Both the position numbers and the translations under genes were made by a program. A stretch of DNA of 64,000 nucleotides from Pyropia yezoensis. Lineage: Eukaryota; Rhodophyta; Bangiophyceae; Bangiales; Bangiaceae. The notes under the pieces are model-generated. The model was given only the letters and a program-made list of their open reading frames with translations. It was not told the DNA's origin and did not search any database. Where the stretch lies: positions 7,084,545 to 7,148,544 of the forward strand of contig CM020620.1 of the NCBI GenBank assembly GCA_009829735.1, in the 5' to 3' direction. Below are positions 32,797-60,396 of this stretch, piece by piece (positions within the stretch are counted from its first letter, which is position 1; each line of letters opens with the position of its first letter).

Positions 32797-33611
32797 GTGA
32801 CCGTTGGAGCTGGCCGTCCTAAGCTCATAACGGCAACCTTGGCCAAGTTGGCCAAGAGGACGAACCAACCCTGTCGGATACTCTGCCGACCTAAGGGAGT
32901 CCGCCCACCTCGGGTAGGACTCCCCAAGAACGTAAACCCACGTCGGGTCATCGCGGTGCTGACGGGTGAGAACTTCCAGGTGGCTGGCCGGGTGCAACTA
33001 GCCCCCGGCCGTGCCTGTTGTGCCCGTATCGTACTTGATACCGGTTCAGGAGCCTCTTTGATACGCAAGTCGCTGTTGCCCAAGAAGGTGACGCACAAAC
33101 GTTGGAGGTCCAAGGCCGACCATATGATCGACATCAATGGTGGGGTACTTCCCATTGTTGGCGCCGTAACCCTACCAACTAGGCCAGGGTCCCTTGAGGT
33201 CGTCGTGACCTATGGAGTAGTTGCTAACATGTCGGTACCCCTGCCTCTGGGTACCTTCTACGTTGTAACACAAGTGCCTTTGATTTGTGGACCCGAGTAT
33301 TGGGTCAAGCTGATCAATGGGGAGACCATCCCCATCCTTCATAAGGGAAAGTGTGTGGCTCCTGTGACAGTATCACAGTCGAAGCCTGTTTGTTCCGTGA
33401 GAGAAGGGTTTACAGCTACCCTGCGTTTAGCCCGTAAAGTCACGTTGCCTCCCAACTCGGTGGCACACGTTGACGTTGTAACTGATTTCTCGGGGAACGG
33501 GTTGGTGCACCCCCACCCCCGTCTAGCTCGTAAGCACCAAGTGCATGTTGCCCTTGGCCCGATGGACTCCACAGCCGGAGTCCCGTGGAAGGTCCAGGTG
33601 ATGAACCTCAG
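32797..33611 (+). pseudogene. pol (protease region) fragment of element A
   Basis: Retroviral-type aspartic protease segment with LDTGSGAS near the start. It is cut off at the junction with the LTR at 33615, so reverse transcriptase and integrase are absent. The codon that overlaps the gag stop in B as ATG is GTG here. Confidence 0.85.
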
Positions 33612-33614
33612 TTC

Positions 33615-34082
33615 TGTGGCAGTATTGACCCCCAGGTCGGGGGCCACACGTGCCATGCAAGGGGCGGCAGGCCACTAGCCTGACCCGTTCCTCCCCCTGC
33701 ATTTGGGGCCATATTCCCTAGGTTTGGGATAGTTAGCTTAGTAGTAAATCCAACTTGGATTTGAGGGTTTTCTGCATTTATCGTCTTGAATTTTCGTGTA
33801 GCCCGGTGGGCAGGTGCTGGGGTGGGAGATTCTGAGTGGCGAGATTCTGAGGGGACCCTGGGGGGATAAGGGGAGGGACAGCGGGGCTTGGCCTTGCTTC
33901 CCCGTCCAGACCAAGAAACTGTTGGACCACACACCATCTTCTTGTTTGTCCGTGGGGGGATTGCCCCACAACAGGGATAGAGTGTGTGCGACTTGCACTT
34001 CTTCCGGTTCCCCCGAAACGGGAGGCAGCCCTTGCGCACCGCCCCAACTTGGGTGTCGCGTGTAGGAGAGGTTTTTGCCACA
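33615..34082 (+). repeat. 5' LTR of element B
   Basis: 468 bp, begins TGTGGCAG and ends TTTGCCACA, the usual TG...CA with short inverted ends. Matches 42516-42981 throughout with scattered substitutions and small indels. Confidence 0.93.
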
Positions 34083-34084
34083 TT

Positions 34085-34102
34085 TGGTGGAGCAGCAGGG
34101 GA
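34085..34102 (+). other. candidate primer binding site of element B
   Basis: Two bases after the LTR the sequence reads TGGTGGAGCAGCAGGGGA. It starts with TGG as required to pair with a tRNA 3' CCA. It is not the initiator-Met type; the matching tRNA is not identified. Confidence 0.5.
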
Positions 34103-34201
34103 CAGAGGCAAACTTTACCTCCGGGTGCACCCGGGTGTAGGGGGCCCTCTGTCTCAGAGGAACGGTGGACTTGGACCGTGTCATACGGATCGTTAGCCAA
34201 C

Positions 34202-36148
34202 ATGGCCGGTTCGGACCCCCCGTCGTCTGGGGAGTACACGGGTGACGCACGTACTTCAGTGCCTGCGAATACCGGTGAGACACAGGTAGGTGTACCTGGG
34301 GTCGCAGAGGGACTAGAGGTCCCTCAAGCCAGCAGGGCTGGAAGTACGGGCGGGCAACAGGCCACCCAGACTCAGTCGGGAGTTCATTCGAGTGACACTT
34401 CTGATGTGGGTGTGCCGAAGTCTGGCCACCGCGTGGTATACTCAACGGGAACGTCCCAAGGTGAGAGGACTGTCCCCGCGGGCTCCACCCGGGTTGGAGC
34501 CAACTTTGGCATGGAGCCGTCACCAACTAGGCTTTCGGAGGACGGCGGACCTCCGTTGGTCGGCGATGGGCTCGCGCCCATGCCCCCGGTTGAGACCCCT
34601 GAGGATCGTGGTTACCCCTCAGGTGGACTCCCGGAGGCGGACCGAGACTCAACTGGAGTCGACAATCCACTCCTCGCGGAAACTGTCCGTCGGGAGGCGA
34701 CCAATGTGTTACGGCAGACTTTGCCAGACCTGGTGGTCACGATGACGAATACTCTTCTGAATCAGATTGTGGCGAGTTTGCCAGATGGCCTTAATGTCCA
34801 GACCGGATTGGGGCTTTCGAGCCCGCAGGCGCAGGGGGAATCCCTCCTCACGCCTATCTCGGGTCGCCCCGAACAGGGGGCGACCCCTGTGACTCCCAGC
34901 GAGGGAGCCACACCATTCTCGGTGGGGCGTACGCCCTTCGCGGGGGAGTTTCCCTCGGAAACGCCGGCGGCTACACCAAGCTCGCCGCGACAGACGACAG
35001 GCACTGCGGGTCAACTTACCCCAGTGCCTCAGCGGCTTTTCCCTCAACGTGAGGTGCCGCCCAAGGTCCAAGTTGCCAACCCGGTCTACCAAAGGATCTT
35101 TGACTGTGAGACCTACGCCCTCCACAACAAGTCGGTGGCGTACGGTCCTGTCCAGGCCCGAGCCATGGGCCGTGCCAAGAAGAATGCACTTCACTCTTTT
35201 GGGCACAAAGCGGAGTGGGATGGAACTCCCCCCCTCCGTGTCTTTGAGTTTCGACGTCGTTTCACAAAAGCCTGTGACGACAATACCATAAGTGAAGGCA
35301 TGGCTTTCTATATGCTACAGGAGTTTACGAAGGGCGACCTGCGGACAGAACTTATGTCCGTCACGCCCAGTTCCTCAAGTGGAGGCGCTGGTGAGGTGAC
35401 GTCCTACTTTGAGCTCGTCAACTGGTTGTTGAGAGCTACGGTGGATGAAGCCGCGTTGGCTTCTCAAGTCGAGGAGTTTACGCAAGCTCATCAAGCAGAG
35501 ACTGAGGACGAGCTGTCCTTTGCGGAGCGAGTCCGTAAGCTCAATAATCTTTGTGGCTTTCTTCATCCACAAGCTGTGGTGAAGAGTCGGTTTGTGGAGG
35601 GACTCCATTGGCCAGTCCGGATGGAGACCCGGGAGCATAACACTGCCCGGGCGACCCTGGCCGAGTTTGCTAGGTTCGCCTACCGCAGAGGTGAGGCCTA
35701 TCGCAAGTTGCGGGAGGAACAACGCCAGGAGCGTCAGGCCGAATTGGCCAAGGAACGCGAGGAGGCGCGCCAGGCCAGAGAGTTGCGAGAGGCACGCCGA
35801 ATTCGCAAGGAGAGGGTAGTAGCTGCCGTGGGAACTTCCCAGGGTACCTCTTCGGCTTCCCAAGTCGGGGAGACCCCTCCGGGAACTGACAATCGGTGTT
35901 GGAACTGCAACTCCGATGGACACTGGGCATATGATTGCCCCATGTTGAGTAAACGCATTCAACAACTTGTGAAGAATGCGAGTAAGAAGTCGGCTACGAA
36001 CGAAGTACGTTCGCGCCGCGAGGGTGGACCTCGACCGGTAGTGGCGGTGGCCACCCCCTCGGCGGAGGAGGCGGACACGTCGTCCTCGGACTCGTCGTCT
36101 TCCCCTTCGCCCTCGGATTCAGACGCCAAGTCGACGGGAACCGAATGA
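34202..36148 (+). CDS. gag of element B
   Basis: 648 aa from ATG 34202; the open frame extends upstream into the LTR but the first suitable ATG after the PBS is this one. The N-terminal 300 residues are Ser/Thr/Pro/Gly-rich and probably disordered. A helical capsid-like region begins near residue 310 (RIFDCETYALHNKSVAYGP, FEFRRRFTKACDD, LVNWLLRATVDE, DELSFAERVRKLNNLCGF). A basic coiled segment rich in Arg and Glu follows, then one CCHC zinc knuckle beginning Cys566 (CWNCNSDGHWAYDCP). A Ser/Asp tail ends at TGA 36146-36148, which overlaps the pol ATG as ATGA. The frame is intact, in contrast to pol. Confidence 0.88.
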   Translation: MAGSDPPSSGEYTGDARTSVPANTGETQVGVPGVAEGLEVPQASRAGSTGGQQATQTQSGVHSSDTSDVGVPKSGHRVVYSTGTSQGERTVPAGSTRVGANFGMEPSPTRLSEDGGPPLVGDGLAPMPPVETPEDRGYPSGGLPEADRDSTGVDNPLLAETVRREATNVLRQTLPDLVVTMTNTLLNQIVASLPDGLNVQTGLGLSSPQAQGESLLTPISGRPEQGATPVTPSEGATPFSVGRTPFAGEFPSETPAATPSSPRQTTGTAGQLTPVPQRLFPQREVPPKVQVANPVYQRIFDCETYALHNKSVAYGPVQARAMGRAKKNALHSFGHKAEWDGTPPLRVFEFRRRFTKACDDNTISEGMAFYMLQEFTKGDLRTELMSVTPSSSSGGAGEVTSYFELVNWLLRATVDEAALASQVEEFTQAHQAETEDELSFAERVRKLNNLCGFLHPQAVVKSRFVEGLHWPVRMETREHNTARATLAEFARFAYRRGEAYRKLREEQRQERQAELAKEREEARQARELREARRIRKERVVAAVGTSQGTSSASQVGETPPGTDNRCWNCNSDGHWAYDCPMLSKRIQQLVKNASKKSATNEVRSRREGGPRPVVAVATPSAEEADTSSSDSSSSPSPSDSDAKSTGTE

Positions 36149-39100
36149 CCGTTGGAGCTGGCCGTCCTAAGCTCATAACGGCAACCTTGGCCAAGTGGGT
36201 CAAGAGGACAAATCAACCCTGCCGGATACTGCGCCGACCTAAGGGAGTCCGCCCACCTCGGGTAGGACTCCCCAAGAACGTAAACCCACGTCGGGTCATC
36301 GCGGTGCTGACGGGTGAGAACTTCCAGGTGGCTGGCCGGGTGCAACTAGCCCCCGGCCGTGCCGGTTGCGCCCGTATCGTACTTGATACCGGGTCAGGAG
36401 CCTCCTCGATACACAAGACGCTATTACCAAAGGAGATGAAGCTCCAACGCTGGAAGTCGAAAGCTGACCATCTGATCGACATCAATGGTGGGGTACTGCC
36501 CATCGTTGGTGCTGTGACCCTACCAACTAGGTTGGGATCCCATGAGGTCGTCGTGACCTATGGAGTAGCTGAGAATATGTCGGTACCCCTGCTTCTGGGT
36601 ACCCCTTATGTTGTAACACAAGTGCCTTTGACTTGTGGCCCTGAGTATTGGGTCAAGTTGATGAATGGGGAGACCATCCCCATCTTTGGTAAGGGAACGT
36701 CTGTGGCTCCTGTGACAGTCTCACAGTCGAAGCCTGTTTGCTCTGTGAGGGAAGGGTTTACTGCTACCCTGCGTTTAGCCCGTAAAGTCACGTTGCCTCC
36801 CAGCTCGGTGGCGCACGTTGACGTTGTAACTGATTATACGGGGAACGGGTTGGTGCACCCTGACCCCCGTCTTGCTCGCATGCACCAAGTGCATGTTGCC
36901 CTTGGCCCGATGGACTCCAAAGCCGGGGTCCCATTGAGGATCCAGGATATGAACCTGAGCTCGTCGCCCAAGTACTTCAAGTCGGGAGCCAAGCTCGGCT
37001 ATATCGACCAACATGAGGGACCGGTAGTAGCGGTTACCCTCAATGCGGGCGCGAGTAGCGACCCGAAGTCCAGAAAGGAGAAGCACCAAGCCAAGTCGGC
37101 TGCCTCTCCTCGGCCCCATGTGAACATGGAGAGTGTTCCACCCAGGTTGAGGGTTCAAGTTGAATGCCTCTTGGACCAATATCACAAGTTGTGGGATGGT
37201 CAATTGGGACTCATGAGAGCCACCCAACACCGGATCGAGTTGAAACCCGGTGCACCCCCTATACGCCAACAACCGTATAGGGAAGGACCCCGTTCAAGGG
37301 CCCTCGTTAAGGAGCAAGTCGCTCGCATGGAGGCCCTCGATGTGATCGAGGCCAGCAACGCCGAGTGGGCGAGTCCGGTGGTTATTGTCCCCAAAGTTGA
37401 TGGGACCCCACGGTTCTGTATGGACTACCGTAAGCTCAACGAGAGCACGGTGAAGGACAGTTATCCCCTACCTAGGATGGACGACTGTCTGGACTCTCTG
37501 GGGGACGCAAACGAGTTCTCCACCCTAGACTGTAACGCGGGGTGTCAGCAAGTTCCCATTGCCCCGGAAGACAGGCATAAAACTACCTTTACCTGTCACT
37601 GTGGTACCTATCAGTGCAAGCGACTACCGTTTGGACTGTGCAACGCGCCGGCAACTTTCCAGCGCGCTATGGACATGATTCTGGCCGGAGTACGGTGGCA
37701 AATTTGTCTCGTGTACCTAGACGATATTATTGTGTTCTCCCGAAGTCCGGAGGAACACATTGGCCATCTTGGCCAGGTGTTCAAGCTACTTGCTGACGCC
37801 AGTGTATCACTGAAGGCGAGTAAGTGCCACCTCTTCACTCAGGAGGTGGAATACTTGGGACATGTTGTCCGTCCGGGGCGTCTCAACGTCAACGAGAAGA
37901 ACTTGAGGGCCATCCGTAAGGCTCAGTACCCCCGGACCCAGACCCAGATGAGGAGCTTCCTCTGGATGTGTAACGTGTACCGACGTTTCACCAAGGGCTT
38001 CGCCAAGGTGGCGAAGCCGTTGAATGCGCTAGTTAGCTCAACGCTACCGAAGCACCTGCCTCCCCCGAGTCGGGTGGAGCAGGACTCCTTTGAGACTCTT
38101 CGGGACCTTCTGCTGAAGCCCCCTATCTTGGCTATTCCCAGGTTGGGAGGCCACTACATCCTGGACGTGGACGCTAGCCACGACCAACTTGGGTGTGTGT
38201 TGCTTCAGCAGCAGCCGGACAACGAGTACTTGCCGGTGGGATACTTTAGTAAGGGGCTGAACTCGGCCGAGAAGAACTACGGAGTCACCGAGTTGGAAGG
38301 ACTCGCAGTGGTGTGGGCGGTGACGTCACTTCGTCACTACCTAGAGGGTGAGAAGTTCCTTATCCGCTGTGACCACCGCGCGTTGAAGTTCATCTTCAAG
38401 ACGGGTTGCACGAACACACGCCTCAACAGGTGGAGGGTGCGACTGGCACCCTTCAACTTTGATATTGAAAACCGACCTGGCAGGCAACATGCCCTTGCCG
38501 ACGGCCTTTCTCGGGTACCTACCGAGGGGCTGGACACTAACTCAGTCGATGAGGACATCCCCGTCCGGGGGGTAGTTACGCGCTCGGGTCAGACGTGGGA
38601 CCCTGAGACGCCAGGGAACAAGAAGTACTTGCCCCTATCGCTGGACGAGGTGGTGAAGGCCCAGGCCGAGGACCCCTTCTGCAAGTCGCAGAGGGATACG
38701 CTGGATATGGTGGCGGAGACGCGGTTCTTTGTCGGAGACGATGGCCTCCTCATGAGGAGGGGGGTAATCCAGGGGACCGAATAACTTGTCGTCACCGCAT
38801 CCCTCAAGGACAGAATTCTTGAGAGGGAGCATAACGCTCCTACAGGCGGACACCTGGGGTCTAGTAAACTCCACCAGACCCTAAGGACCAGGTACTACTG
38901 GCCGTCCATGGTGGTGGACATCGATAGTTGGGTGGCTGCCTGCACAAGTTGTGCGCAGAACCGTCTGATGGAACGGCGGCCTACTACGGCTATGCTACTG
39001 TTCCCGGCCAAGGAGCCTTTTGCCGCGTTGGCAATGGACATCCGTGGGCCCCTGCCAGTAACAGAGGATGGCAACCAGTACCTCCTGGTCATCGGCGATC

Positions 39101-40126
39101 GCTTCACGAAACTTACGCGAGCGATCCCACTAGCAGAGATCACGACCATGTCGATCGTGTCAGCCTTCCCAGATCATTAGTTTGCCGCGTATGGATGGCA
39201 TCCGGGACATCATATTGTCGGACAACGGACCGCAGATTGCGTCCGTACTGTTTCATGTAGTGCTGGATATGTTGGGTTTTCACTATGCCACCCCCTACCA
39301 CCCACAAGCTAATGAGCAGGTGCAGCGCTTCAACAAAACTATTGTTCGACAGCTGCGCCACTATGTGAGCGATCTCGTGAAAACTTGGGACCAATACATT
39401 TCTATTCTTACAACTGCCTACAATTCGCAGGTTCACTCATCTACCGGGGAAGTACCTCTCGTTTTTGTGACCCCACGTCGCGTGCGGTCTATTGCCGTAC
39501 GGCGGCCGCTTCCAACTAGGGAGGCCGATGGCAGTACACCTACTCCCACTGAGAGTAAGGCGGAGGTCGCCGCTAGGCTCGAGAAACTCATCCCTAAAGT
39601 CAGGGCTGAGATGGACCAAGTGCAAATGCGCTAGAAACGTACTTTTGACAAGAAGGTGCGTAATGCCAAGCACATCCCCGAACAGGGTGACTAGGTGCTG
39701 GCACACTCACATACCCCAACTGGGGGTAAGTTGGTGTTCCAAACGAAGGGGCCATACCAAGTCCTTCGTACGGATGGGCGACGATTTACCATCATAAGTG
39801 ACGATGGGGTCTGCACAGTAAACGGACAGGAAGTGGTAAAAGTTGCACCACCTCTGGCAGGCGATCCGGCTTGGGCGCGTGCGGTAAAAGCGTGGCGCCT
39901 GCCTTCGCTACCTGCGACCAAACAGGGCCCGCAGGAGTACGTGTTCGATAAGTTCAGCGACCACGGGTGGGATGAGGACACTAACGGCCTCATGTTGAGG
40001 GTGTGTTGGTTCGGCTATAAGGCCAAAGGTGATACGTGGAAGTACGCGGAGGATCTTCCTGCTGAGAAGGTCCGGGCGTGCTGCGCTTGGAATGATGTGG
40101 ACCCCAACTGCCCTGCCTCAATGTGA
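36145..40126 (+). pseudogene. pol of element B: protease, RT, RNase H, integrase, chromodomain; five lesions
   Basis: ATG 36145 overlaps the gag stop, suggesting termination-reinitiation. Visible: protease LDTGSGAS (Asp81); reverse transcriptase with FCMDYRKLNE, LPFGLCNAPATFQ and YLDD (from Tyr524); RNase H DVDASHDQLG; integrase zinc-binding region (HNAPTGGHLG, then CTSCAQNR); integrase core with DIRGPLP and LSDNGPQ; chromodomain-like end with WDEDTNGLMLRVCWFGYKA and DTWKYAEDLPAE. Lesions: TAA at 38782-38784 (CAA in D); TAG 39178-39180 (also in D); a 4 bp ATGG duplication about 39191-39198 shifting the frame; TAG 39632-39634 (also in D); TAG 39692-39694 (TGG in D). Confidence 0.9.
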
Positions 40127-40237
40127 GAGAAGGTCATGTGACGGTGCCAAGAGAGTGCTCCAAGTCGAAGTGGTACGCAGAGTGGCTCTTATCTACAGCC
40201 ATAACCCACAAACTCTCACATCCAAGGCAGCTGGCAA

Positions 40238-42139
40238 CTAGGCACGCATGCTAGACTCCCCAACACCACGACCCTCGCCCTCACGCGGAGGCGAGCGGCG
40301 AGACCCACGCCGATAACATTCTCCATTCGTTGGAGGGGGCGGTGGCTCCAAGTCGGAACCGTCGCGCCCCTCACGGTCGCGCAAGTGGCGATGACCGCGG
40401 CTACCCTTCTGCTTGGTCTTGCACGCAAGTTGGCGACGCAGAGGCCGGACAGACTCCGTCTCCGACGGGGTAGAGGACTCCGAGGCGGATTAAGACAACT
40501 CGTCTTCCGACACGTAGGGAGAGCGCCGCGAGTGACGGCGACGATGGCGAGGAGACGAGTATGCCCGGCTTGCTCGACGCGTGCCGCGCCCTAGTGGGGC
40601 CGACTGGGGCACCATGGACCCGATACGAGCCACCTCGGTCGTCATGAACCCCGCTACCGACTCGCACCTCGCGGTCGCCACAGCAGTGCGAACGCGCTCT
40701 TCAAGTTTAGGAGTCTCGGATACTTGGAGTGTTGCAGCCGACGCGGCCAACCAAGGAATGGTGCGCACCAACGTGGTGATCATCATATCGGAAGTCAAGG
40801 GCGCGGCCGGCAGTACCAACTTGGGGTAGACCGTGAGTAGGGTGGCCCCCAAATTGGGGGCTACCGGAGTGGATGTCTTAACAGCAACGCCTATCGGGAT
40901 GTCCTCGTGCGGCTGGAACGGGACGGGAGGAAGCGGAGGGGCTCGCCGAGTGGGCGGAGCCCGAGAGTAACTGCGATCCCTACTCGGGGCCCCCGCAGTG
41001 GGTTGAGTCATGTACTCGTCGTGGGAGGCCACGGCCACCACGATTGCCTTGTCCGGGGGAGGCGCAGTGAGGCGTTCCACCACCGGGGCATACGGGTAGT
41101 CGCCGATGCCCAACCCCTCCTTGAGTACCACGCGGCCGTCGTGAAGTTCACGGCCGACCCAGACGAACAAGCGAAGTGGGCTATCGTCCTTGGGCCCGCG
41201 GGAAGATCGGCGCCACTTGTGCTCGATGCTCTCCCACTCGATGAGCTTGTGGAGACGCAGCATCTCCACGAGTAGAGTGAGCTGTCCCGATGGGCACCCC
41301 TCAGCAACTAGCTGAGGGGTTAGCTGCTCCAAACCTTGGATAAGCCGGGGGGATAGATGCCAGAACATCCCCCGCCGCTTGACACAAGACACCCAGGTCG
41401 ACATGACCTCGAGGAGCCACTGGGTTGCCAACATGGCGAACACCAGGTGGTCCGGGCTAGCCGTGAACATGACAAAGCCGAAGTGGTCGATCAACCGTGG
41501 TAGTAGCGCCGGGAACCCATAGGGGACCTCGACTTGAGGCCACCACTTGGGCTTCTTGGGGTAGCATTGCTCCTTGATTGCAGGTGACTGCTGCGGAAAC
41601 TCGAGTTGAGACGAGGTCACCATGTAGAGACCTCGCCGGTAGTCCTTCTCAATCCGCACGTCGAAGTGATGACTGTGCGGATCGAAGTCGCGTAGGTACG
41701 GGGGGCGAGTTGCCACCACATCCGAAGTGAAGGTCGGCACGTCGCCGGTACCCGCGATAGTACCCCCGCGGGCCAACAAATTCTTGGCCCGCTGCACGTC
41801 TTCGACCTCTACATCATCCAGGAGGGCGAGCTGGTCCGTCTTGAAATCGGCAGGAAACCCGGCCCTACGAGGGAACTTCTCCCGTAGGCGGTCCTAGACG
41901 CGACTCATCGCTGTGCCAAGTCGGCCACAGCGAATAACCGTCAACTCCTCCTCGTACAGGGGCCAAGGGGGGTAGAACCACCTCCCCAAGGCCTCCCGTG
42001 GAACAAGCGGGCCTACCTCCGGGGGAGATCCCGCCGCCAGCCCAAAGCCGGGTGACGCGAGCATCCCATCCCCTGGAGCGACCCCGGAGCCCCTGCCGGA
42101 GGTCCCTGCGGGCGCCACATCGCAGGATGTACCCTCCAT
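40238..42139 (-). CDS. antisense ORF (aORF) of element B, unknown protein with RS-rich C-terminus
   Basis: 634 codons in one frame on the strand opposite gag-pol, from ATG 42139 to TAG 40238-40240, with only two nonsense codons (TAG 41894-41896, TGG in D; TAA 40490-40492, TAC in D). The frame stays open upstream of the ATG. The stop is 111 bp from the pol stop, tail-to-tail. Regions: an N-terminal block with REALGRWFYPPWPLYEE; a middle block with RPPYL, EKDYRRGLYMV, QVEVPYGFPALLPR and LATQWLLEVMSTWV; a Pro-rich linker; then a helix (MMITTLVRTIPWLAASA) and an Arg/Ser-rich tail (HRRRHSRRSP) typical of nuclear or RNA-binding proteins. Element D encodes a close homologue in the same place. No known domain recognised; not gag, pol or env by any motif I can see. 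Confidence 0.75.
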
Positions 42140-42502
42140 CCGTTCGTACAGGGAGTCAGTCTCCAACCCCTGGGTCACTATGGCTCTCCCCAAGTTAGGG
42201 AAGGACAGCTCGGCTGCAGCTGCACAAGACCCGCCTCGAGTTGAGGGGGACTAGGAACGCGGGGAGACGGGTGGCCTCCCCAGCGTGGAGTGGCCCAGGG
42301 TAATGTGAAGGGGATGTGTGGGTGGTGGTAAGCTGACCATGGTTGAGAGCAAGCTGCCAAGTGGGCAAGCTTGAGGAGAGGGGCGGTCGATGTGACCGCC
42401 TCCACGCCCGCGTGACGTACCGGGGGTCAGCGAGTCCCGCCCTCAACGCCGCGATATGCGTTTCTATAACCCCTCGCAGGGCCGACCGGGTCGGTCGGAA
42501 CT

Positions 42503-42515
42503 GAGGAGAGGGGAG
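42503..42515 (+). other. polypurine tract of element B
   Basis: GAGGAGAGGGGAG directly before the 3' LTR, the expected plus-strand primer. Confidence 0.85.
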
Positions 42516-42981
42516 TGTGGCAGTACTGACCCGCAGGTCGGGGGGCAACACGTGCCATGCAAGGGGCGGCAGGCCACTAGCCTGACCCGTTCCTGCCCCT
42601 GCATTTGGAGCCATATTCCCTAGGTTTGGGATAGTTAGCTTAGTAGTAAATCCAACTTGGATTTGAGGGTTTTCTGCATTTTATCGTCTTGAATTTTCGT
42701 GTGGCCCGGTGGGCCGGTGCTGGGGTGGGAGATTCCGAGTGGCGAGACTCTGAGGGGACCCTGGGGGGATAAGGGGAGGTACAGCGGGGCTTGGCCTTGC
42801 TTTCCCGTCCCGACGAAGAAACTGTTGGCCCACACACCATCTTCTTGTTTACTGGTGGGGGGATCGCCCCACAACAGGGACAGCGTGCGTGCGACTTGCA
42901 CTTCTTCCGGTCCCCCCGAAACGGGAGCCCTTGCGCACCGCCCCAACTTGGGTGCCGTGTGTGCGAGTTGTTTTCGCCACA
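42516..42981 (+). repeat. 3' LTR of element B
   Basis: 466 bp, starts TGTGGCAG, ends CGCCACA. Compared with the 5' LTR there are scattered substitutions and small indels, including a 4 bp loss near 42928. Confidence 0.93.
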
Positions 42982-45106: not shown

Positions 45107-48100
45107 TTGTTACCCCGAAACCCGATCAAGCACCACCTAGGACGACGAATGTCAACCAAGAAAAAAAATGTCCCTCCCGACCTGAAGGAGGCACTGGAGG
45201 AGCTTCCTCAGGAATATCGGCACCTGTGGTCTGGAGAGCTGGGCAAGATGGACGCCACCCTACACCGGGTTCAACTCAAGCCGGATGCCAAGCCAGTGCA
45301 CCTGCAACCGTACCGGATTGGACGACCTCGCCGGGATGAGATTGAGAAGCAGGTAAACAAGATGCTCAAGATGGATGTTATCGAGCTGTCTGATGGCGAG
45401 TGGACTTTCCCGGTGGTAGTCGTCCCGAAACCTGGCGGTCACTTCCGTTTCTGCGTCGATTACAGACGCCTCAACGAGATGACAGTCAAGGATGTATGCC
45501 CGATACCCCGGATGGACGATTGCATCGACTTCCTTGGTGATGCCACCCTCTTCTCGACGCTGGATTGTAATGCCGGTCACTGGCAGTTCTCTCAGGCCGA
45601 CGATGACAAGGACAAGACCACCTTCACGTGCCATATGGGGCTATTCCGGCGTAAGTGTCTTCCTTTTGGTCTCACCAATGCTCCGGCTACTTTCCAGCGA
45701 GCCATTGGCATTATCCTGTCGGGGCTGAGGTGGAGAACATGTTCGGTCTACCTGGACGACATCATCGTTCTCTCCAAGACCCCAGCGGAACACCTGGAGC
45801 ACCTTCAAGAGGTTCTGGCTCTCCTGTCCAAGGCTGTTGTTACCCTAAAGGCCGAGAAGTGTCACCTGTTTGAGACGGAAGTGGAGCACCTGGGGCACGT
45901 GCTGAGTGCGGGGGAGCTCCGGGTCAGCGAAAAGAATATCAAGGCTCTTCGGCAAGCCCGGCAACCTAAGACCCAGACGGAACTCAACAGCTTTCTGGGT
46001 ATGTGCAACGTTTACCGCCGGGTCGTACGGGACTATGCCGTGATTATTCCGCCATTGACCAAGCTCACCAGCAAGAAGCTCGCCGCACAACCCCCGGTAT
46101 TCGACGAGAAGCAGACCGCTGCCTTCGTGGAGCTCAAGAAGCGCCTGACCGCGACTCCAGTACTGGCGTTACCCAAGCGGGAGGGCCAATTTTTCCTAGA
46201 GACTGATGCCTGCGGCGTCCAGGTAGGGTGCTCTCTACTCCAGCAACAATTTGATGGGCACTTGCTCCCGATAGGCTACTATAGTCGCGTTCTGACTCCA
46301 GCCGAGAAGAACTGTTCCACATCGGAGCGCCAATGCTTGGCGGTCGTCTGGGCTTGCTTTTCGTTACGCCCCTATCTGGAAGGACAAGAGTTCCTCACCC
46401 GGACGGACCACGCCAGCTTAAGGTGGCTGCTATGCATGGACAGCAGCCAAAGAAGGGTCCCCCGGTGGCGTCTACGCCTCTTGGAATTAAACTACAAGGT
46501 GTGCACCAGAGCAGGGAGGGAGCACAACTGCGCCGACACCATGTCCCGGTTGGAGACTCCTGCAGCCGACACAGGCCCTATCCCGGAGAAAATACCTTGA
46601 TGCATCCTCCCGAATGTGGGACGTGGCTGGCATGCTCTCTTGTATGAGACACCTGAAGCTCACCAACCGGCTACAATTCATCGGATGCTGGAGGCACAGC
46701 TTACGGATCCTCATTGCTTGGAGCTTCGCCACCAGATGGACCTGAACCGGAATAGTCGCTTCTTTGAGTCTACGGATGGACTCCTGATACGCGTGTCACC
46801 CTTCGATGGAGCAACTCAAGTCTACGTACCCCGAAGTCTACGAGCTGACATCCTCCGCCTGGAATATAAGTCTCCCCAGGCCGGACACCTTGGCATCAAC
46901 CGGATATATGCCTCGATGCGGCGACACTCATACTGGGAAACCATGGCAAGTGACGTTTACACACATCGAGAGGCTTGTGTCTCCTGTGCAAGAAACCGGC
47001 TGACCCAGAGGAAGAAGACTTCTAAGCTACGCCTGTTCCCGGCGGCGGAGCTCTTTGCAAGCTTAAGCATGGACATCCTGGGGCCCCTACTTGAGACATA
47101 CAGTGGCAACAAATACCTGCTCATCATTTGTGACCAGTTCTCCAAGTTCACCCTAGCGATGCCGCTGGGGACCATCACGGCCCTGGATGTTACGTCAGCC
47201 TTCTGCGAGACCTGTATAGCTGCCTATGACCCTCCAGACTCCGTCTTAACCGACAATGGTCCCCAGTTTGCATCCCTGGTCTTCTAAAGAGTCTGTGACC
47301 TGATGGGTAACAAGATCTTGTTCACTACGACGTATCACCCCCAAACGAACGGCAATGTGGAACGATTTAACCGGACCCTGGTGGACATGCTACGGCACTA
47401 CGTTAAGGAGCATCAAGAAGACTGGGACGAGCTCCTGGCCGTCCTCACGCTAGCCTACAACTCTCTGGTTCACCGGACAACGGGGGCCGCTCCACTAGAC
47501 TCTGTCACCCCAAGACGGCATACCAAATTCTCCCTAGAAAGAATACCAGACGGTCTCCAGCCTGCCCTGAAGTCGGGTCCCAAGGCAAAGGATGAGTTCC
47601 TGGAACAACTGAAGCTCCTGCTCCCAAGAGTCAAGAAGTCAATCGCGAAGGCCCAGGAGCAACACAAGCGGGACTATGACAAGGGTGTTCCGGAGAAGAT
47701 TAAGGAACTGGGTGGTGGCGACTGGGGTTTTGCGGACAATGTTTAGCAAGACCCGGAGGAAGCTGGACTTCAACACGTACGGGCCCTATGAGATCCTGAG
47801 TACGGACGGCTGGACACTCCTTCTAGACGTGGATGGCTCCCCGTACCGGGTGAGCAGCGACCATGTCACCCGAGCTCCACCGCCACGCAAACAGGACCTG
47901 ACAAGGCGCGAGCGTGCCGCAGTACTCTGGTTATCCCAAGAAGAAGGCCGAGAATATGACTACGTCAAGTTCGTTGACCATTCCCGGAGGGACGGGCGCA
48001 TGTACCTGCGAGTACGCTGGTTTCTTTTCAACCCGGCTTATGATACTCGGGAACTCTCCAACCGGTTGCCCATTGCGGAAGTTTGCGCATACACGCGTCG

Positions 48101-50831: not shown

Positions 50832-51324
50832 ACGTGAGAGTGGTATTTCTGTTGGGATTTTGCATATTTGTGAGGAACTTGATTTGAGAGAATTCGAGTG
50901 TGAGATTAGTGAGTGCGAATTGAGTTAGAAGTGATAGTGTCCCCCGACCGGACGAGATTAGACTCGGGTCGGGGCCACTCGGGGGTATGGGGGGGCTCCC
51001 TGGCCAACGTGCCGAGGCTCCCCCAGATGCGCGTTAATCGGGACAGCGAGGCGCCCTTGGCCCGCGCCCTCAGGAAAAAGACAGCTGCGCGTTTGCTTTC
51101 CTTTTCCCCGTGTGCACTACCGTGCGTGGTTGTTTTCTCTGCGAGCAGGCACGTGAGGCAACAGGCATACCACTCTCGTAGTTACCCCTTCTGTGTTACC
51201 TGACCCTTTCCCCCGACGGATATTGACACGTGTCTGAGAGGATCGAGCTTTATACCACACGCCCCGCGTTGCAGCACCCTTTGGGGCTTCTGGCGGGTGC
51301 TCCGCGGTTGTCCTAAGGGATAGA
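50832..51324. other. junction region between elements C and D
   Basis: About 490 bp without a coding frame. It may contain the 3' LTR of C and/or the region upstream of the D antisense ORF. No repeat with the B LTR is seen. A lower-GC stretch with TGTGAG/GTGAGT-like repeats lies at about 50840-50945. Confidence 0.4.
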
Positions 51325-53150
51325 ATGCCTTCGTCACCCGACTTTGGGCTAGCGGTGGGCGCTCCCCCGGAGGAAGGCCCCGTTAGTCCTCGGGAGGCCT
51401 TGGGGTGGTGGCTCTACCCTTCCTGGCCCCTGTATGAAGGCTGCCTGGCGGTGACTCGCTGTGGCCGAATGTGCGCAGCGATGAGTCGCGTCTGGGGGCG
51501 CCTACGGGCGAAGCTCCTCCGTAGGGTCGGGCTCCCCCCCGATTTCAAGCCGGACGAGTTTGCCTTCCTTGACGACGAGGAGGTCACAGACGTGCAGCGG
51601 TTCATCAACTTGATGATGCACGGGGGCATTACCGAGGGCCCCGTCGACACTCCATCCTTCACTGGAGACGCGGTGGCAACTCGCCCCCCCTACGTCCGGT
51701 CGTCGGACGCGCACGTTCATCACTTTGACAGGCGGTTCGAGAAAGACATCTGACGGGGTCCCTTCTTTGTGATCTTGGCTTAACTTGCGCTTGCGTTCCA
51801 AGCGCCGGCGACAAAGGAGAAAAACTGCCCCAAGAAACTGGAATGGTGGCCTCAGGTTGAGGTCCCCTTTGGGTTTCCCGCGTTACTGCCGCGGTTAGTG
51901 GACCCCTTTGGCTTTTCTTTGTTAACGGCTAGCCCGGACCACTTCGTGTTTGCCATGTTGGCTGCTCTGTGGCTCCTCGATGTCATGTCGACCTGGGTGT
52001 GTTGCGTGCGAGAGCGCGGGATGCTTTGACTTGTACCACCCCGCCTGATCCGAGGTCTGGAGCAGCTCACATTTTTGAAAGCTGCTGAGGGGAGCTCGGC
52101 AAGCCATCTCACTCTACTGGGGAAGACGTTGAAGCAACATCGACTTAGTCAGTGCAAGAGTGTCGATCACAAGTTTCGCCGACCCTCACAAAGGACCAAG
52201 GCTCAAGGCGCACCTCGCGAATTCCTCTGGGTCGCCCCCGAGCTCCAAGACGGAAGGGTTGTTCTCAAGGAGGGTTTGGGGATCGAGCACTACCCTTACG
52301 CCTCTGGCGTGGGGAGCAACACTGCACCACCCCTAGAGAAGAGCTCTGTTGTGGCTGGCGCCCACCCGGAGGATTATTCCGCGCAAGGAGCCGCAGCAGC
52401 TTCAAATAAGGGTCGCGGCTACGCTCGGGCTCCGCCAACTCGGCAGGCCCCTCCTATTCCGCTTTTTCCCTTCCAACCGCATGTGGACATCTCGATTGGC
52501 GTGGCAGTTGAGTCGCGCACGCCTGTGTCCCCGCACTTGGAGGCCACACTACGTACGGTCTACTCCAAGTTGGTGTTGCCGTCCGCGCCCTTAACTATTG
52601 CCATGATGATCACCACGTTGATGCGCACCATGTCGTGGTGGGACGCGTCCGCGGCGACTCTCCAGATGTCGGAGATCCTTCACTTTGGGAGCGCGCTCAG
52701 GCGGTCGGGGCGACTGCGAGTAGCGAGTCGGTCGCTGAGTTTGTGACGGGCGAGTTGGCTCGTATTGGCTCCCTTATGCCCTTGTCGGCCCCAAGGGGGC
52801 GTAGTAAGCGTCGGGCGAGCCGTGGATACTCTCCTCCTCGTCATCGTCGCCGCCACTCGCGGCGTTCTCCCACGGTTTCGGAAGGCGAGTCGTCTTACTC
52901 CGCGTCGGAGTCATCGACTCCTTCTGAGACCGTTTCAGGCCGGCGTCTGCGTCGCCAACTCGTGCGCAGGACCAAGCAGTCTAGCGGTCGCGGTCGTCGT
53001 CACACACGCGACCGTAGCAGTCATAACGGGTCTGACTTGCAGTCGCCGGCTCCACCGACAAGTGATAATCGTCACCAACGTGGGTCTCGTCGCTCGCCTC
53101 CACGTGAGGGCGAGGGTCGCGGTGTTGGGGAGTCTAGCATGCGTGCCTAG
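51325..53150 (+). pseudogene. antisense ORF remnant of element D
   Basis: Homologue of the B aORF in the same relative position. ATG 51325 (MPSSPDFGLAVG) opens 142 codons; the frame is then lost near 51753-52075 and resumes in pieces at 52075-52746 and 52635-53150, ending ESSMRA and TAG just as in B. It keeps TGG and TAC at the two sites where B has stops, and a complete Arg/Ser-rich tail with an extended SASESSTPSETVSG segment. The stop is 45 bp from the pol stop on the other strand. Confidence 0.8.
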
Positions 53151-53195: not shown

Positions 53196-53815
53196 TCAAA
53201 AGCTACTTTGCGCACCACTTCGACTTGAAGCACTCTCTTGGCACAGCCACTTGGCCCTCGCTGACGTTGAGGGAGGGAAGTCAGGGTCGATGTTATTCCG
53301 GGCGCAGTAAGCCCGGACCTCCTCAGCGGGGAGGTCCTCCAGGTACTTCCATGTGTCATCTTTGGCGCGGAAGCCAAACCAACGCACCCTCAGCATGTGG
53401 CGGTTATTGTCCTCATCCCAGCAGTGGTGGATAAATTTATCGAACATGTACTCCTGCAAGCCCTGTTTGGCCGCAGTCAACGAAGGCAGAGGCCACGCCT
53501 TGAGCGCGCGCGCCTGAGCTGGGTTGCCTGGAGGGGTCAGTGCAACTTTTACCACGTCCTGTCGGTTTACTGTACGGACGCCATCGTCCCTATCGATGGT
53601 GAGCTGTCTCCCATACACACAAAGCACATGGTATGATTTCTTCGTTTGGAAGACCAGCTCTCCCCCAGTTGGGGCATGCGAATATGCTAGCACCCAGTCA
53701 CCCTGCTCGGGGACGTGCTGGGCATTACGCACCTTCTTGTCAAAAGTACGTTTCTAGCGCTTTTGCGCTTGGTCCATCTCAGCCCTGACTTTCGGGATGA
53801 GTTTTTCGAGCCTAG
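53196..53815 (-). pseudogene. C-terminal part of element D pol (integrase end and chromodomain)
   Basis: Contains TAG at 53754-53756 (same site as B 39632-39634), then VRNAQHVPEQGDWVLAYSH and a chromodomain-like block (WDEDNNRHMLRVRWFGFRA, DTWKYLEDLPAEEV). It is cut from the rest of pol by the piggyBac insertion at the CTAG site. Confidence 0.85.
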
Positions 53816-56800
53816 TGTCTATTCTACCATTGGGATCAATTGATCCTTACAGGATCATATGATACTTGTTTTCAACTCCAAACTGTGGACGTCTGAGAGG
53901 TCCCACAACCATTTTGACCGCGGAAGCAGACGCAGCGCTGTTCGTTTGCCCTTGGGGTCCAAGAACGTCCTTAAACTACATGTATTTGCAAAACTGTGTG
54001 CATTTCTGTGACAGTCCCCAGAAGGCACAGCCGACTGAGCCCCCGCGCCTGACGAGTGCCTGATGCGCGCGCTCCCCACCCAAACGGCTCAGCGCACAGC
54101 ATCTGGCCCTGTCTGCAGCCGTCTGTGAAAGGCCACCTCTTGCTGGATGACACCTATGCAACCGCGCTTTTCCTTCCAGAGCAGCGCGCGATACCGTTTT
54201 GGCGCCACCTTCCCCCTCCTCTCGCGCTGCTCTCGAGCTAACGACCAGTACGTTTCAGCTTCCAATGTGTGCAGGCGCGCCTCTGCTTCGAATCAGGCCC
54301 TGCCAGTCCTGACGGCTGAATACCTGACTTTCGCCGGTGGCGAGGACCCTTGACCCCTTCTGCCTTCCCCCTCCTCCTCCTCTGGTCTGCCCCACTCCCC
54401 TCACTACATTTTCCGGTGCGCCTCCTTACTTGCTGTACGCATGGCGCCTCTGTCTGACCCCCGTCTCGTGATCAATACTTCCGTCCATGCCAAGGCCATC
54501 CACGTCAAGAACTTTGCGGAATGTGCGCGCTTGTACGGCAGCGCCGCGACCACGAAGCTGGTGGATGGACGCGTGACTGCGTTTCGTCGCGACAAGAATA
54601 AGAACAACCGCCTGGTGACAACCGTCACGGCACGGTGGCGGATGTCGGGGTATGAGGTGGTCAAGTGTCTGGGATTGCGGTGTGTGCGTGCTGGTGCCGC
54701 CCCTGCGCCAGCGGGACAGCCAGGGCCGCTGCCTTCCAGTGGCGTTGCCGATGCGGCCTTACCCTCCCCTCTGCAGACCTTCGCAGGTGCGGCCAGCCAA
54801 GCACGCGAGCCTGCGGAGCCTACCCCTCCTGATGTTCCTGATGCGGACCGACTGCCCCCGGATGGCAGCCTACCCCCCACTGCCATGAACAACGAGGCCG
54901 ATCCGTCCAGCCAATCGTGTGACGTGGCGGCCGGCTGCCCACTGGCTCTCGCGGAACCGCTGGCCGGGCCGGCGAATGGGCCTGCTGCCCCCGCGTCTGT
55001 TGTGGTGCACGGCTTTGAATGGCGTGATGCGGACGTTCTGCAGCCGATCGGAGGGCCTTTCACGCGACGGGCGTGGTCGGTGCGCTCGCTGGGCGACGAG
55101 CTTATTACGGAAGGTGGAGACGCTATGGGCTTTGGGCGGTCTCGTACGCCGCTGGACTACTTCCTTGCTGTCTTCCCACAAGATCAGCTGGCGAGGATGG
55201 TGCGTCTCACGTCAGCCAAGCTGGAGGCGGCGGGCGTACAGCCTACGTCTCCTGGGGAGCTGGTAAAGTTTTTTGGTGTGCTCCTGCTGTCCACGCGGTT
55301 TGAGTTTGGGTCGCGAGCCGAGCTGTGGTCTACCACCCAACGGACAAAGCACCTGCCCGCCCCTGCATTTGGGAGCCGAACCGGCATGCCTCGACGGCGC
55401 TTTGATCTTCTGTGGTCGTCGCTGACATTCAGTGGAGGAGCCCCCGACGCGCAACCGGCGCCCGGCTTGGGGTCTGAGCAGCGGCGATGGGCAAGGGTCA
55501 ACGACTTAGTGGAATCCATAAACGCCCATCGTTCATCCCGTGTCACATCTGCAGACACCATCTGCGTTGACGAGTCCATCTCGCGATGGTGCGGGCAAGG
55601 CGGCCACTGGATATCCCGCGGGCTCCCGATGTATGTGGCGATTGACCGCAAGCCGGAGAACGGGTGCGAGATCCAAGACGCAGCGTGCGGCCGCAGCGGA
55701 CTGACGCTGCAGCTGCGCATCGTCACCTCCGCAGCCGACCAACACGCCAACATGACTGCTGAGGAGCTTGCTGGCTCCCACGGCACTGCCGTACTTATGC
55801 GGCTGGTGCGATCATGGGCGGGGACGGACCGCATCGTCTGTGCGGATTCGTACTTCGCCAGCGTTGCAACCGCACTGGCGCTCAACGAGGTCGGCCTGCG
55901 CTTCACCGGCGTGATCAAGAATGCACACCGGCGCTTCCCATTGGCCAGCCTGGCATCTCGCGAGCTGGGTTCCAGAGGTGACCAACACTCGATGGTTCAT
56001 CTCGACGCCACCGGTCGGCCTGATATGCTGGCACTCGTGTGAGTGGATCGGGAGCGGCGCTACTTTGTGTCAACTGCTGGCAGCAGTCAGCCCGGCATCC
56101 CCTTGGAGCGCGTGCGATGGAGGGAGATGGAGGACGGGGCTGGCGCGCAACGCGTGGCGCTGACGGTGAGGCAGCCTGAGGTGGCAGAGCTCTACTACGG
56201 GTGCTGCTCCCAGATCGACCGCCACAATCGCTGTCGGCAGGACGACCTACGCCTGGAGCGGAAGTTGGGGACGCACGACTGGTCCATGCGCGTGAACATT
56301 TCCCTGCTGGGGATTTGCATCGTCGACGCATGGCTGCTCCATCACGGGGCGAGGGGGCCGGCGGCATCTCTGTTGCAGTCCAATTTCTACGAGCAGCTGG
56401 CATCTGAGATGATTGACAACACTCTCAATGCCGTTGGGACACGTGTGAGGGCGCTCCCGGACGGACCAGGCCAGGCAGCCTCGAGTCCAGCATACGGGGT
56501 GGGGACGTACCTGACACCCACGTCCAAGAGGCGCAAGACGCCATCGGGTCGCAGGACATCCGACCACTTGGCGCAACGTGGTTGTCGAGCATGTCGTGCC
56601 CGGACCACTCTCGTGTGCTCTACATGCAGGGACACTCCTGATGTGGGAGAGGTGTTTCTTTGCGGTGCCCGATCTGGCCGCTTTTGTTTCGCGGAGCACA
56701 TGCGTGCTGTGCACGAGATGGTTGTGTGACCAACTCGGGGAAGGGGTGGGGGGCGCGGGAGTGGAGAGGGTGCACCGGGGGCGTATTGTGGCGGCCGCCA

Positions 56801-57680
56801 GGTGAGGAGGTCATGGGGGGTGGGGTGGGAGGTGCAGACGGGGTGGGGTTGCACCGGAGTCTGGAAATGGAGCGTGCGTGGAGGGCACTGAGATGAACAT
56901 TGGGGAGCACCAAGCGTCGATGAGACTGTCGTTCGTTCATTGTCCAGTAGGGCCACGCACGAGATGATGGGGACCACCCCCTCACCCGTCGCAGCACGTG
57001 AACAGATCGTGCAGAGCTGGCACTGCAAAAGGGGACTGATGCAGTGCAGGCCTTCGAGCGGGCGGGCTGATCGTGCACGTGTCAGCTGGGCATGCTCCCT
57101 GGCATTCTCTCATGTCTGTCATACTTTGCATTCTGAGAGGAGTCGCACCAGGTGCAATGGCGGCCGTCGCGGCGATGGACACGAGTCTCTGCGGCTGTGC
57201 GCAGAGTAGGGGCTGTACCGTTCCCCCTCCCCCTCCCCTCCTGATTAGGTCTGAATTGCGCACACAGCGACGCGATGCGCATGGTGGAACGGTGGCCGAC
57301 GCCGACATGGGACCCGTCTCAAGGGCCGTGCATAAATGGGATCCTCCCCGGCTTCCCCCCCCCCCCCCCTTGCTCGGGTTCTGAATTCGCGCGGCCAGCA
57401 GCAGCGCCTGAAGCGGCGTTGATGGAGCGCAGCTGCTGGTATCGCGAGATCTCGCGACAACAGAGGCGTTTGCGGAATGGCCAACCTCTGGTCACTCGCG
57501 TTACAGCCGAGCCAGCCCCGTTCGTGCCAGCTGAGCGGTCGTGAAGCGCAGGCAGGAAATTGTGTATGACGCACGGAGTCCGAAATATATGGACGAGAGG
57601 TGGAATCGACGATTGCCAGAGGGGATCATATGATCCTCGGGTGGGGATCAATTGATTCTCACCTCAAGGTAGAATAGACA
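53816..57680 (+). mobile_element. piggyBac-type transposon inserted in element D, CTAG duplication
   Basis: 3865 bp bounded by 13 bp inverted repeats TGTCTATTCTACC (53816-53828 and inverted at 57668-57680). CTAG is present on both sides (53812-53815, 57681-57684), while the uninterrupted B sequence has a single CTAG at the same site (about 39570). Mirrored subterminal palindromes occur near both ends: GATCAATTGATC-type (53834-53845, 57646-57657) and GATCATATGATC-type (53853-53864, 57624-57635). It encodes a piggyBac-like transposase. Classic piggyBac elements use TTAA, so the target is atypical. Confidence 0.9.
54441..56729 (+). pseudogene. piggyBac-type transposase with one internal TGA
   Basis: ATG 54441, total 762 codons, intact apart from TGA at 56040-56042 (codon 534), after which the same frame continues to TGA 56727-56729. 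The first 85 residues form a small beta-like basic domain; then a Pro/Ala linker. The core begins near residue 230 with RTPLDYFLAVFPQDQLARM and FFGVLLLSTRFEFG. The three expected catalytic aspartates are Asp377 (ICVDESISRW), Asp469 (CADSYFAS) and Asp593 (SQIDRHNRCRQDD). The C-terminus holds a Cys/His cluster (CRACRARTTLVCSTC ... FCFAEHMRAVH), like the cysteine-rich DNA-binding domain of piggyBac transposases. The stop separates the second and third aspartates, so the copy should be inactive unless read through. Confidence 0.88.
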
Positions 57681-60396
57681 CTAGCAGCGAGCTCCGCCTT
57701 ACTCTCAGTGGGAGTAGGTGTACTGCCATAGGCCTCCCTACTTGCCAGCGGCCGCTGTACAACAATGCACTGCACACGGCGCGGGGTCACGAAAGCAAGG
57801 GGTGCTTCCCCCGTAGATGAGTGAGCCTGCGAGTTGTGGGCGGTACTCAGAATAGAAATGTATTGGTGCCACGTTTTCACGGGGTCACTTACGTAGTGGT
57901 GCAGCTGCCGAACAATAGTTTTGTTGAAGCGCTCCACCAATGCATAAGTTTGTGGGTGGTAGGCAGTGGTAAAGTCTGCCGAAACCCGCAACAAATCCAG
58001 GACACCCTGATGCAGTACGGACGCAAATGTCGGTCCATTGTCCCACAGCGTACTATCCGGGATGCCATACGCGGCAAACTAATGATCTGGGAAGGCTGAC
58101 ACGATCGACATGGTCGCGATCTCTGCTAGTGGGATCACTCGCGTACGATTCGTGAAGCGATCGCCGATGACCAGGAGGTACTGGTTGCCCTTCTTGGTCA
58201 CTGGCAGTGGCCCAAGGATGTCCATCGCCAACGCGGCGAAGGGCTCCTTGGCCGGGAACAATAGCATAGCCGTACTAGGCCGCCGTTCCAGCAAACGGTT
58301 CTGTGCACAACCGGTGCAGGCAGCCACCCAACTGTAGATGTCCACCACCATGGACGGCCAGTAGTACCTGGTCCTCAGGGTCTGCTTACGTTTACTAGAC
58401 CCCAGGTGTCCGCCTGTAGGAGCGTTATGCTCCCTCTCAAGAATCTTGTCCTTGAGGGATGCGGGGACAACAAGTTGTTCAGTCTCCTGGATGGCCCCCG
58501 TCCACAAGAGGAGGCCTTCATTTTTCCGATGAAGAATTGCGTCTCCGCCACTGCGTCGAGCGCCTCCCTCTGCGACTTGCAGAAGGGATCTTTGGCCTCG
58601 GCCTTCACCACTAAGTCCACTGAAAGGGGCAAGTACTTCTTGCTCCCTGGCGCCTTGGGGTTCAACACCTGCCCCGAGCGCGTGACCACCCCCACGATGG
58701 CGATGTCCTCAGCGATTGGGCTAGTATCTGGCCCCTCGGTAGGTACCCGCGAGAGGCCGTCGGCCAAGGCATGTCGCCGGCCGCGACGGTACTCGATGTC
58801 AAAGCTGAATGGTGCAAGTCGCATCCTCCACCTGTTGAGGCGGGTGTTGGTGCAGTCCGTCTTGAATATGAACTGTAACGCGCGGTGGCCAAAGCGGATG
58901 AAGAGCTTCTCACCCTCCAGGTAGTGACGAAGTGATGTCACCACCCACACCACTGCGAGTCCCTCCCACTCTGTGACTCCATAGTTTCGCTCCGCCGAGT
59001 TCAGCCCCGTGCTTACGTATCCTACGGGCAATTACTCCTTGTCCGGCTGTTGATGTTGCAGCACAAAACCAAGTTGGTCGTAGCTAGCATGCACGTCCAC
59101 GACGTAGTGGCCTCCGAACCTGGGAATAGCCAAGATGGGAGGGTTCAGCAGTAGATCCCGAAGAGTCTCAAAGGATTCCTGCTCGACCCGAGTTGGCGGA
59201 CGCAGGTTCTTCGGTAGCGTTGAGCTCACTAACTCATTCAACGGCTTCGCCACCTTGGTGAAGCCCTTGGTGAAACGTCGGTACACGTTACACATCACGG
59301 GGAAGCTCCTCATCTCGGTTTGAGTCCGGGGGTACTGAGCCTCACGGATAGCCTTCAGATTCTTCTAGTTCACACTGAGGCCCCCGGGCGGACGACATGT
59401 CCCAAGTATTCCACCTCTTTGAGTAAAGGGGTGGCGTTTGCTTTCCTTCAGCGATCCACCGGCGTCAGCAAGTTGCTTAAACACCTGACCAAGAACGTCA
59501 ATGTGCACTTCCGAAGTTCGGGAGAACACGATGACATCGTCTAGGTCCGCAAGACAGATATGCCACCGTACTCTGGCCAGAGTCATGTTCATGGCGCGCT
59601 GAAGACTTCCGGCACGTTGCACAGCCCAAACGGTAGTCGTCAGCACTGGTAGGTACCCCAGTGACAGGTGAATGTAGTTTTATGCCCGTCTTCCGGGGCA
59701 ATGGGAACTTGCTGACACCCCGCGTTACAGTCTAGGGTGGAGAACTCGTTTGTCTCCCCCACCGAGTCCAGACAGTCATCCATCCTCGGAAGAGGATAAC
59801 TGTCCTTCATCGTGCTCTCGTTGAGCTGACGATAGTCTATTTTGAACCGTGGCGTCCCATCAGGTTTAGGGATGATCATCACCGGGCTCGCCCGCTCGGC
59901 GTTACAGGTTTCAATCACATCTAGGGCCTCCATGCGAGCAACTTTCTCCTTGACGAGGGCCGTCGAACGTGGTTCTTTCCTCTACGGTTCTTGACTTCTG
60001 GAAGCCACACCGGGTTTCAACTCGATTCGGTGTTCCGTGGTTTTCATGAGTCCCAATTGACCATCCCACAACTAGCGATATTGGTCTCATATGCGTTCCA
60101 TTTGAACCCATAACTTGAGCGGAACAATTTCCATGTCCACATAGGGTCGAGGAGAGGCTGCCGACTTGGCTTTGTCCTTCTCCTTCTCGGGCTTCATGCC
60201 GCCTGTCACTCCCCGATTGAAGGTGACCGCGACGACCGAACCCTCATACTCGTCGATATAGCCGTACTTGGCTCCCGACTTGAAGTACTTGGGTGAAAGG
60301 CTCAGGTTCATCACCTGGACCTTCCACGGGACTCCCGGTTTGGAGTCCATCGTGCCAAGGGCAACGTGCACTTTGTGCTTACGAGCAAGACGGGGG
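57681..60396 (-). pseudogene. protease to integrase part of element D pol, heavily broken
   Basis: Read on minus from 60396: end of protease region, RT (KIDYRQLNE, LADLDDVIVFS), RNase H (DVHASYDQLG), integrase zinc region (HNAPTGGHLGSS) and core (MDILGPLP, LWDNGP). Frames change several times between 59950 and 58500. TAG at 58079-58081 matches the B stop at 39178-39180. The sequence ends at the piggyBac junction. Confidence 0.85.

Follow-up and report, generated by a model that had tools for sequence, protein, structure and literature searches.

Reports of antisense genes in LTR elements go back to the 1990s, and in the accessible text of PMC7264820 their function is given as not known. As the original prediction had stated, ORFs of this kind lie between pol and the 3' LTR of some plant elements. 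Among them are gene23 of Grande, which according to the accessible text of PMC7264820 has a nuclear product and its own promoter, and the TRP28 antisense ORFs of Retand, which the available part of PMC11963269 reports in 97% of Retand clusters and only from flowering plants. Retroviral antisense genes with a nuclear product, HBZ and APH-2 of HTLV, are described in the same part of PMC11963269, and the HTLV antisense promoter is placed in the 3' LTR by the accessible text of PMC7264820.

Here we describe an antisense gene (aORF) in a Ty3/gypsy element of Pyropia yezoensis, a red alga whose repeats are dominated by LTR elements (PMC7423979, accessible text); the earlier guess of an algal family was therefore right. 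The aORF is a real protein-coding accessory gene situated between pol and the 3' LTR; young subfamilies share it with a conserved protein sequence, and an internally deleted derivative carries it too. Like the aORF-3R genes of Grande (gene23), RIRE2, PvRetro13 and Boty, as presented in the available part of PMC7264820, it is antisense to gag-pol, occupies the interval between pol and the 3' LTR, is present in most copies and is conserved at the protein level, and its product, like those of the plant and fungal aORF-3R genes, has no clear homology to other proteins. This likeness is one of position and description; the hosts there are plants and fungi, whereas here the host is a red alga, and, unlike in the aORF-3R comparison elements, selection on the protein has been measured across copies. 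The likeness to HBZ and APH-2 of HTLV, also antisense genes, is likewise one of description. With Retand the element shares a long region between pol and the 3' LTR that holds an antisense gene, as well as some non-autonomous members (PMC11963269, available part). On the other hand, Retand is a non-chromovirus lineage, reported in the same part of that source only from Eudicotyledons and Liliopsida, whereas the pol described here ends in a chromodomain-like stretch, and TRP28 (PF04195) had no match in the aORF protein in 9 of 9 family members at E values up to 1. The aORF thus belongs to a known positional class and is not recognized as TRP28, and its host is a red alga. No antisense retroelement gene from red algae, or from Porphyra/Pyropia, was found in the literature searched, most subscription papers lying outside its scope, and in the accessible main text of PMC7423979 on P. 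yezoensis the word "antisense" is absent and "retrotransposon" occurs once.

The window, i.e., the whole 64,000-nucleotide stretch of DNA analysed, contains one decayed member of a large and abundant Ty3/gypsy family, element B. Its 5' LTR (33615..34082, plus strand) is 92.3% identical over 470 columns to its 466-bp 3' LTR (42516..42981, plus strand, TGTGGC...GCCACA), and no target-site duplication was seen at these LTRs. A pol-start-like piece lies just upstream of the 5' LTR (32797-33678); this piece, together with LTR flanks that do not match, shows element B to be nested or recombined. A gag-type ORF (33986..36148, plus strand), the 5' part of which overlaps the LTR, contains a CCHC zinc knuckle (PF00098, 25.1 bits; cut-off 20.8), and pol (36145..40126, plus strand) has Pfam matches to RT, RNase H, integrase and, weakly, a protease, and closes with a chromodomain-like stretch. 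In a young copy of the family, L029, the RT, RNase H and integrase are all above the Pfam cut-offs, the integrase core only in this copy, and the chromodomain-like end reaches 21.3 bits (PF00385, E 2.6e-4), below the cut-off of 25.1. The paired LTRs, a purine-rich tract (PPT) adjoining the 3' LTR (42498..42515, plus strand, block identity 0.98) and an RT-RNase H that precedes the integrase identify element B as Ty3/gypsy. Chromoviruses likewise have RT, RNase H and integrase, together with a chromodomain at the integrase C-terminus; the chromo match here is below the curated cut-off, and a chromodomain alone does not settle chromovirus membership, since the chromodomain Gypsy lineages of Ectocarpus are not chromoviruses (PMC12477816, accessible part). 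A further ORF with RT and RNase H (45107-46600; PF00078 and PF17917 above cut-off) is present near the 3' end of element B. A second, inverted and older element of the same lineage, also seen at about 53815-60278, holds an older broken relative of the aORF (51241..53147, plus strand; 58.7% and 70.1% amino acid identity in two pieces by tblastn). Inside this second element, a 533-aa ORF (54441-56042) matches DDE_Tnp_1_7, a piggyBac-type transposase, at 106.8 bits.

The aORF spans 40238..42181 on the minus strand; its young stop-free relatives have 647 codons followed by a stop. The 634-codon minus-strand frame with two nonsense codons that had first drawn attention was recovered at 40238-42139, where the window copy carries a terminal stop and two internal ones; its start requires correction, the family start codon being 14 codons further upstream, at about 42181. 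At this position the window copy has no ATG, and the ATG is kept in 25 of 29 copies. The aORF and pol were confirmed to lie tail-to-tail, the last pol ORF of the window copy (39695-40126) being separated from the aORF by 111 bp (40127..40237, from the ORF coordinates), and the five lesions attributed to pol correspond to four in-frame stops and one frame change relative to L029. Stops number 12, 22, 22, 17 and 15 in the other five frames of this segment. Each of 1000 shuffles that preserved dinucleotides, scored by the emptiest of its six frames, contained at least 6 stops (mean 11.4), compared with 3 in the antisense frame with the terminal stop included, in line with the openness originally noticed.

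Own-genome searches, in which the best 40 of 1500, 97 of 2656, 68 of 3675 and 150 of 1645 candidates were scored, yielded merged lists with at least 284 distinct loci that match the aORF, decayed ones included. With the protein of a young copy as the query, all of the best 68 of 3675 candidates were stop-free, at an identity rounding to 100%, and with the core query 80 of the best 97 of 2656 were stop-free; these are best-scoring matches only, so stop-free copies are favoured. An RT query gave 86 listed matches, all stop-free, 38 of which have a listed aORF match alongside by their coordinates. Twelve of the other 48 RT loci were inspected: nine carry the aORF across the whole of the inspected span at >99.3% identity, eight of them with 671 codons open and the ninth broken, and in the remaining three the aORF is cut short or interrupted. 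The idea that young copies are often devoid of the aORF is not supported, as only the best-scoring matches had been listed. Eight of the 35 aORF matches without a listed RT match were also sampled, and six of them have an RT piece, one partial.

Selection was assessed on an alignment of 29 copies, 10 of which are stop-free over the frame. The original prediction implied protein-level constraint, which was borne out over all pairs of these copies by a median dN/dS of 0.42 in the antisense frame (5-95% range 0.21-0.73), whereas the medians of four further frames are 1.05, 1.52, 1.05 and 1.44; that of sense frame 1 is 0.51, yet this frame is full of stops. Between young subfamilies, dN/dS counted from the ATG is 0.05 for L029-L031, 0.04 for L029-L033 and 0.15 for L029-L037, and over the stop-to-stop frame the L029-L033 pair gives 0.10 for the antisense frame, compared with 0.24 for sense frame 1 and 2.4-3.9 for the four remaining frames. 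Values are higher for L029 against the older stop-free copies L019, L024, L028 and L032 (0.26-0.28) and among older pairs (0.47 for L020-L028 and 0.55 for L020-L024), as expected from decay after insertion. From the ATG on, the ratio of replacing to silent changes (N/S) in the 29 copies is 0.86 for variants found in two or more copies and 2.89 for private variants; the difference between shared and private variants is highly significant (Fisher p 2.4e-26, stop-to-stop frame), and the private variants provide a near-neutral control within the alignment, so the pattern is not explained by mutation bias. Five codons carry a stop in at least two copies and 32 in one copy, so some of the "shared" changes come from dead lineages. 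In 11 near-identical full-length copies the shared variants comprise 2 silent and 2 replacing changes, too few to tell.

Pol behaves in the same manner as the aORF, with N/S of 0.36 for shared and 2.14 for private variants in 14 copies, while the aORF gives 0.70 and 2.63 in the same 14 copies. From this comparison the aORF is constrained but faster-evolving than pol; across one set of 12 older copies, the aORF is 0.84-0.90 identical to that of L029, and pol 0.89-0.97. The high GC content of the region (0.63) and the reduced N/S of sense frame 1 (1.12 for shared variants) could be taken to mean that the antisense frame is open by chance, or that it mirrors constraint on a sense-coding sequence, but the low value of sense frame 1 is as expected from aligned third positions. 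Sense-strand coding as the source of constraint is rejected, since in seven stop-free copies sense frame 1 contains 25-32 stops (11-32 across the other frames). The stop-to-stop frame of L029 has 724 open codons, whereas 1000 shuffles of this frame reached a maximum of 402. Taken with the dN/dS of 0.04-0.15 between young subfamilies and the contrast between shared and private N/S, these results rule out a chance open frame, and we regard the probability of either version of this explanation as practically nil.

A different question is whether the antisense transcript itself, rather than the protein, is the functional product, through dsRNA or interference with the sense RNA. Such a role has been proposed for elements of this type (PMC7264820, accessible text), and the aORF is antisense to the genomic RNA; however, constraint is seen at the level of codons and begins at the ATG. 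Shared N/S is 1.83 before the ATG (private variants there, 2.31) and 0.59-1.15 after it, being lowest, at 0.59, in codons 278-440, where constraint is strongest, and third positions are freer, with column identities of 0.944, 0.960 and 0.896 at the three codon positions. A transcript function with the protein incidental is contradicted as the sole explanation and is very improbable. The non-coding stretch upstream of the antisense ATG (42182..42497) is a candidate antisense promoter; its column identity in 15-base blocks is 0.85-0.98 over 22 copies, overall no higher than in the coding part. Within 42182-42515, high-identity blocks reach 0.98 over 22 copies, and a CCGACC/GGTCGG inverted motif stands beside the PPT. 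We suggest that the aORF is made from its own antisense transcript, which would start in the 334 bp between the ATG and the 3' LTR, or within the 3' LTR.

A protein of 647 aa and about 72 kDa is predicted. It begins with a part rich in Gly and Pro, followed by a middle that contains Leu and Trp, then a linker rich in Pro and, last, a basic Arg/Ser tail. The tail (residues 530-647) has a pI of 11.6, a charge of +17 and an NLS-like stretch, KRRASRAYSPPRRRRR. The RS-rich tail that had been noted is confirmed in its composition (Arg 24%, Ser 18%), but with only 5 RS/SR dipeptides it is not a classical RS domain. Env-like third genes have sense orientation and transmembrane segments, whereas the aORF is antisense and no membrane span was found in its product (maximum 19-residue mean hydropathy 1.23). 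The Pfam profile check returned 0 families in 9 of 9 members at E values up to 1, PDB sequences gave no match, no likeness to the element's own gag was found, and 47 pattern matches among viral contigs included 0 relatives. Protein database searches matched only P0002, which is 97% identical and whose source is labelled lgn, and PHROGs gave no match with P0002, the only query used there; remote relatives may exist, because each of the two protein database searches scored the best 8000 candidates by common words. Structure prediction from two sequences gave a mean pLDDT of 32.6, with values <50 throughout bar 3 residues; the model renders much of the middle helical, to which no weight is given at pLDDT <50. 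With no domain match and a structure model of no use, any biochemical role is guesswork based on composition.

The orphan nature of the protein, which has no relative among the protein families or viral contigs searched, would also suit a gene taken up from the host, with a product that performs a host-like task. We consider such an origin improbable, since no host homologue was seen in the own-genome searches, where element copies could hide one, and an old relative of the aORF was already present in the diverged element. Our best guess, and the most likely reading, is instead a nuclear, nucleic-acid-binding accessory role, suggested by composition and analogy, namely the basic tail with its NLS-like stretch and the nuclear product of Grande gene23 (PMC7264820, accessible text). 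The roughly 72-kDa product would be nuclear, with the Arg/Ser tail providing nuclear import and binding nucleic acid, and it may act as a regulatory or transport factor on element RNA or cDNA. For the whole of this explanation, i.e., a real gene, its own antisense transcript and a nuclear nucleic-acid-binding regulatory or transport factor, we estimate a probability of about 0.6. The original proposal of an unrecognized accessory protein thus stands as far as the openness and dN/dS tests reach, and the interpretation as a whole is partly supported.

The aORF is also retained in an internally deleted derivative. The locus L031, about 5.0 kb long, has both LTRs, which are 99.4% identical, so the copy is young. 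What it retains corresponds to positions 1-964, 3368-3701 and everything from 5710 onwards in element B, so that RT, RNase H and most of both gag and integrase are missing. The same deletion junction was found at 97-100% match in at least 40 loci (best 40 of 2599 candidates), and this common junction implies that each of them lacks RT, RNase H and the larger part of integrase, gag loss being observed in L031 only. Twelve of the other 39 junction loci were inspected, and 11 have the aORF at ≥90% length; of these 11, seven are stop-free (one with a 3-base gap) and four have one stop each. Because all of these copies were found via the aORF or the neighbouring junction, retention rates cannot be read from them.

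These copies bear on whom the aORF serves, not on whether it is a gene. Its protein may work in trans for the whole family, e.g., by activating all LTRs or countering their silencing; the deleted derivative would then keep the aORF simply because this derivative arose recently and undergoes recombination with full-length copies. The youth of L031 fits this view, as does the retained pol piece, which is stop-free in the 11 deleted copies shown (2 with a one-base gap). Among the deleted copies (L031, L058-L069), several have an aORF pieced together from two types, which points to template exchange, and the conservation can also be explained by such exchange with full-length elements. On the other hand, in the deleted copies together with L031 the shared variants (silent:replacing) are 73:8 in the aORF and 27:11 in the retained pol piece, i.e., a shared N/S of 0.11 versus 0.41 (p 0.014), although in the five pairs with both measured, dN/dS is lower in the aORF in three and in the pol piece in two. 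In addition, another type of deletion that has the same left edge (L013, L015 and also L017; the LTRs of L013 and L015 are more diverged) keeps the aORF region, an observation biased by the finding of these copies via the aORF. Action in trans is a possibility to be taken seriously, though short of even odds. More doubtful is the reading that a red algal Ty3/gypsy lineage evolved an antisense accessory protein independently of flowering plants, that this protein acts preferentially on the copy encoding it, and that the aORF is needed for spread even by elements that have lost RT, RNase H and most of integrase.

The family is abundant, has many young stop-free copies and shows measured protein-level selection, and a parasite derivative has kept the aORF while losing the enzymes; what the antisense protein does, and for whom, is thereby directly testable. 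The antisense aORF class, so far known mainly from flowering plants, now has a red algal member, which points to a class that is either very old or has arisen more than once.
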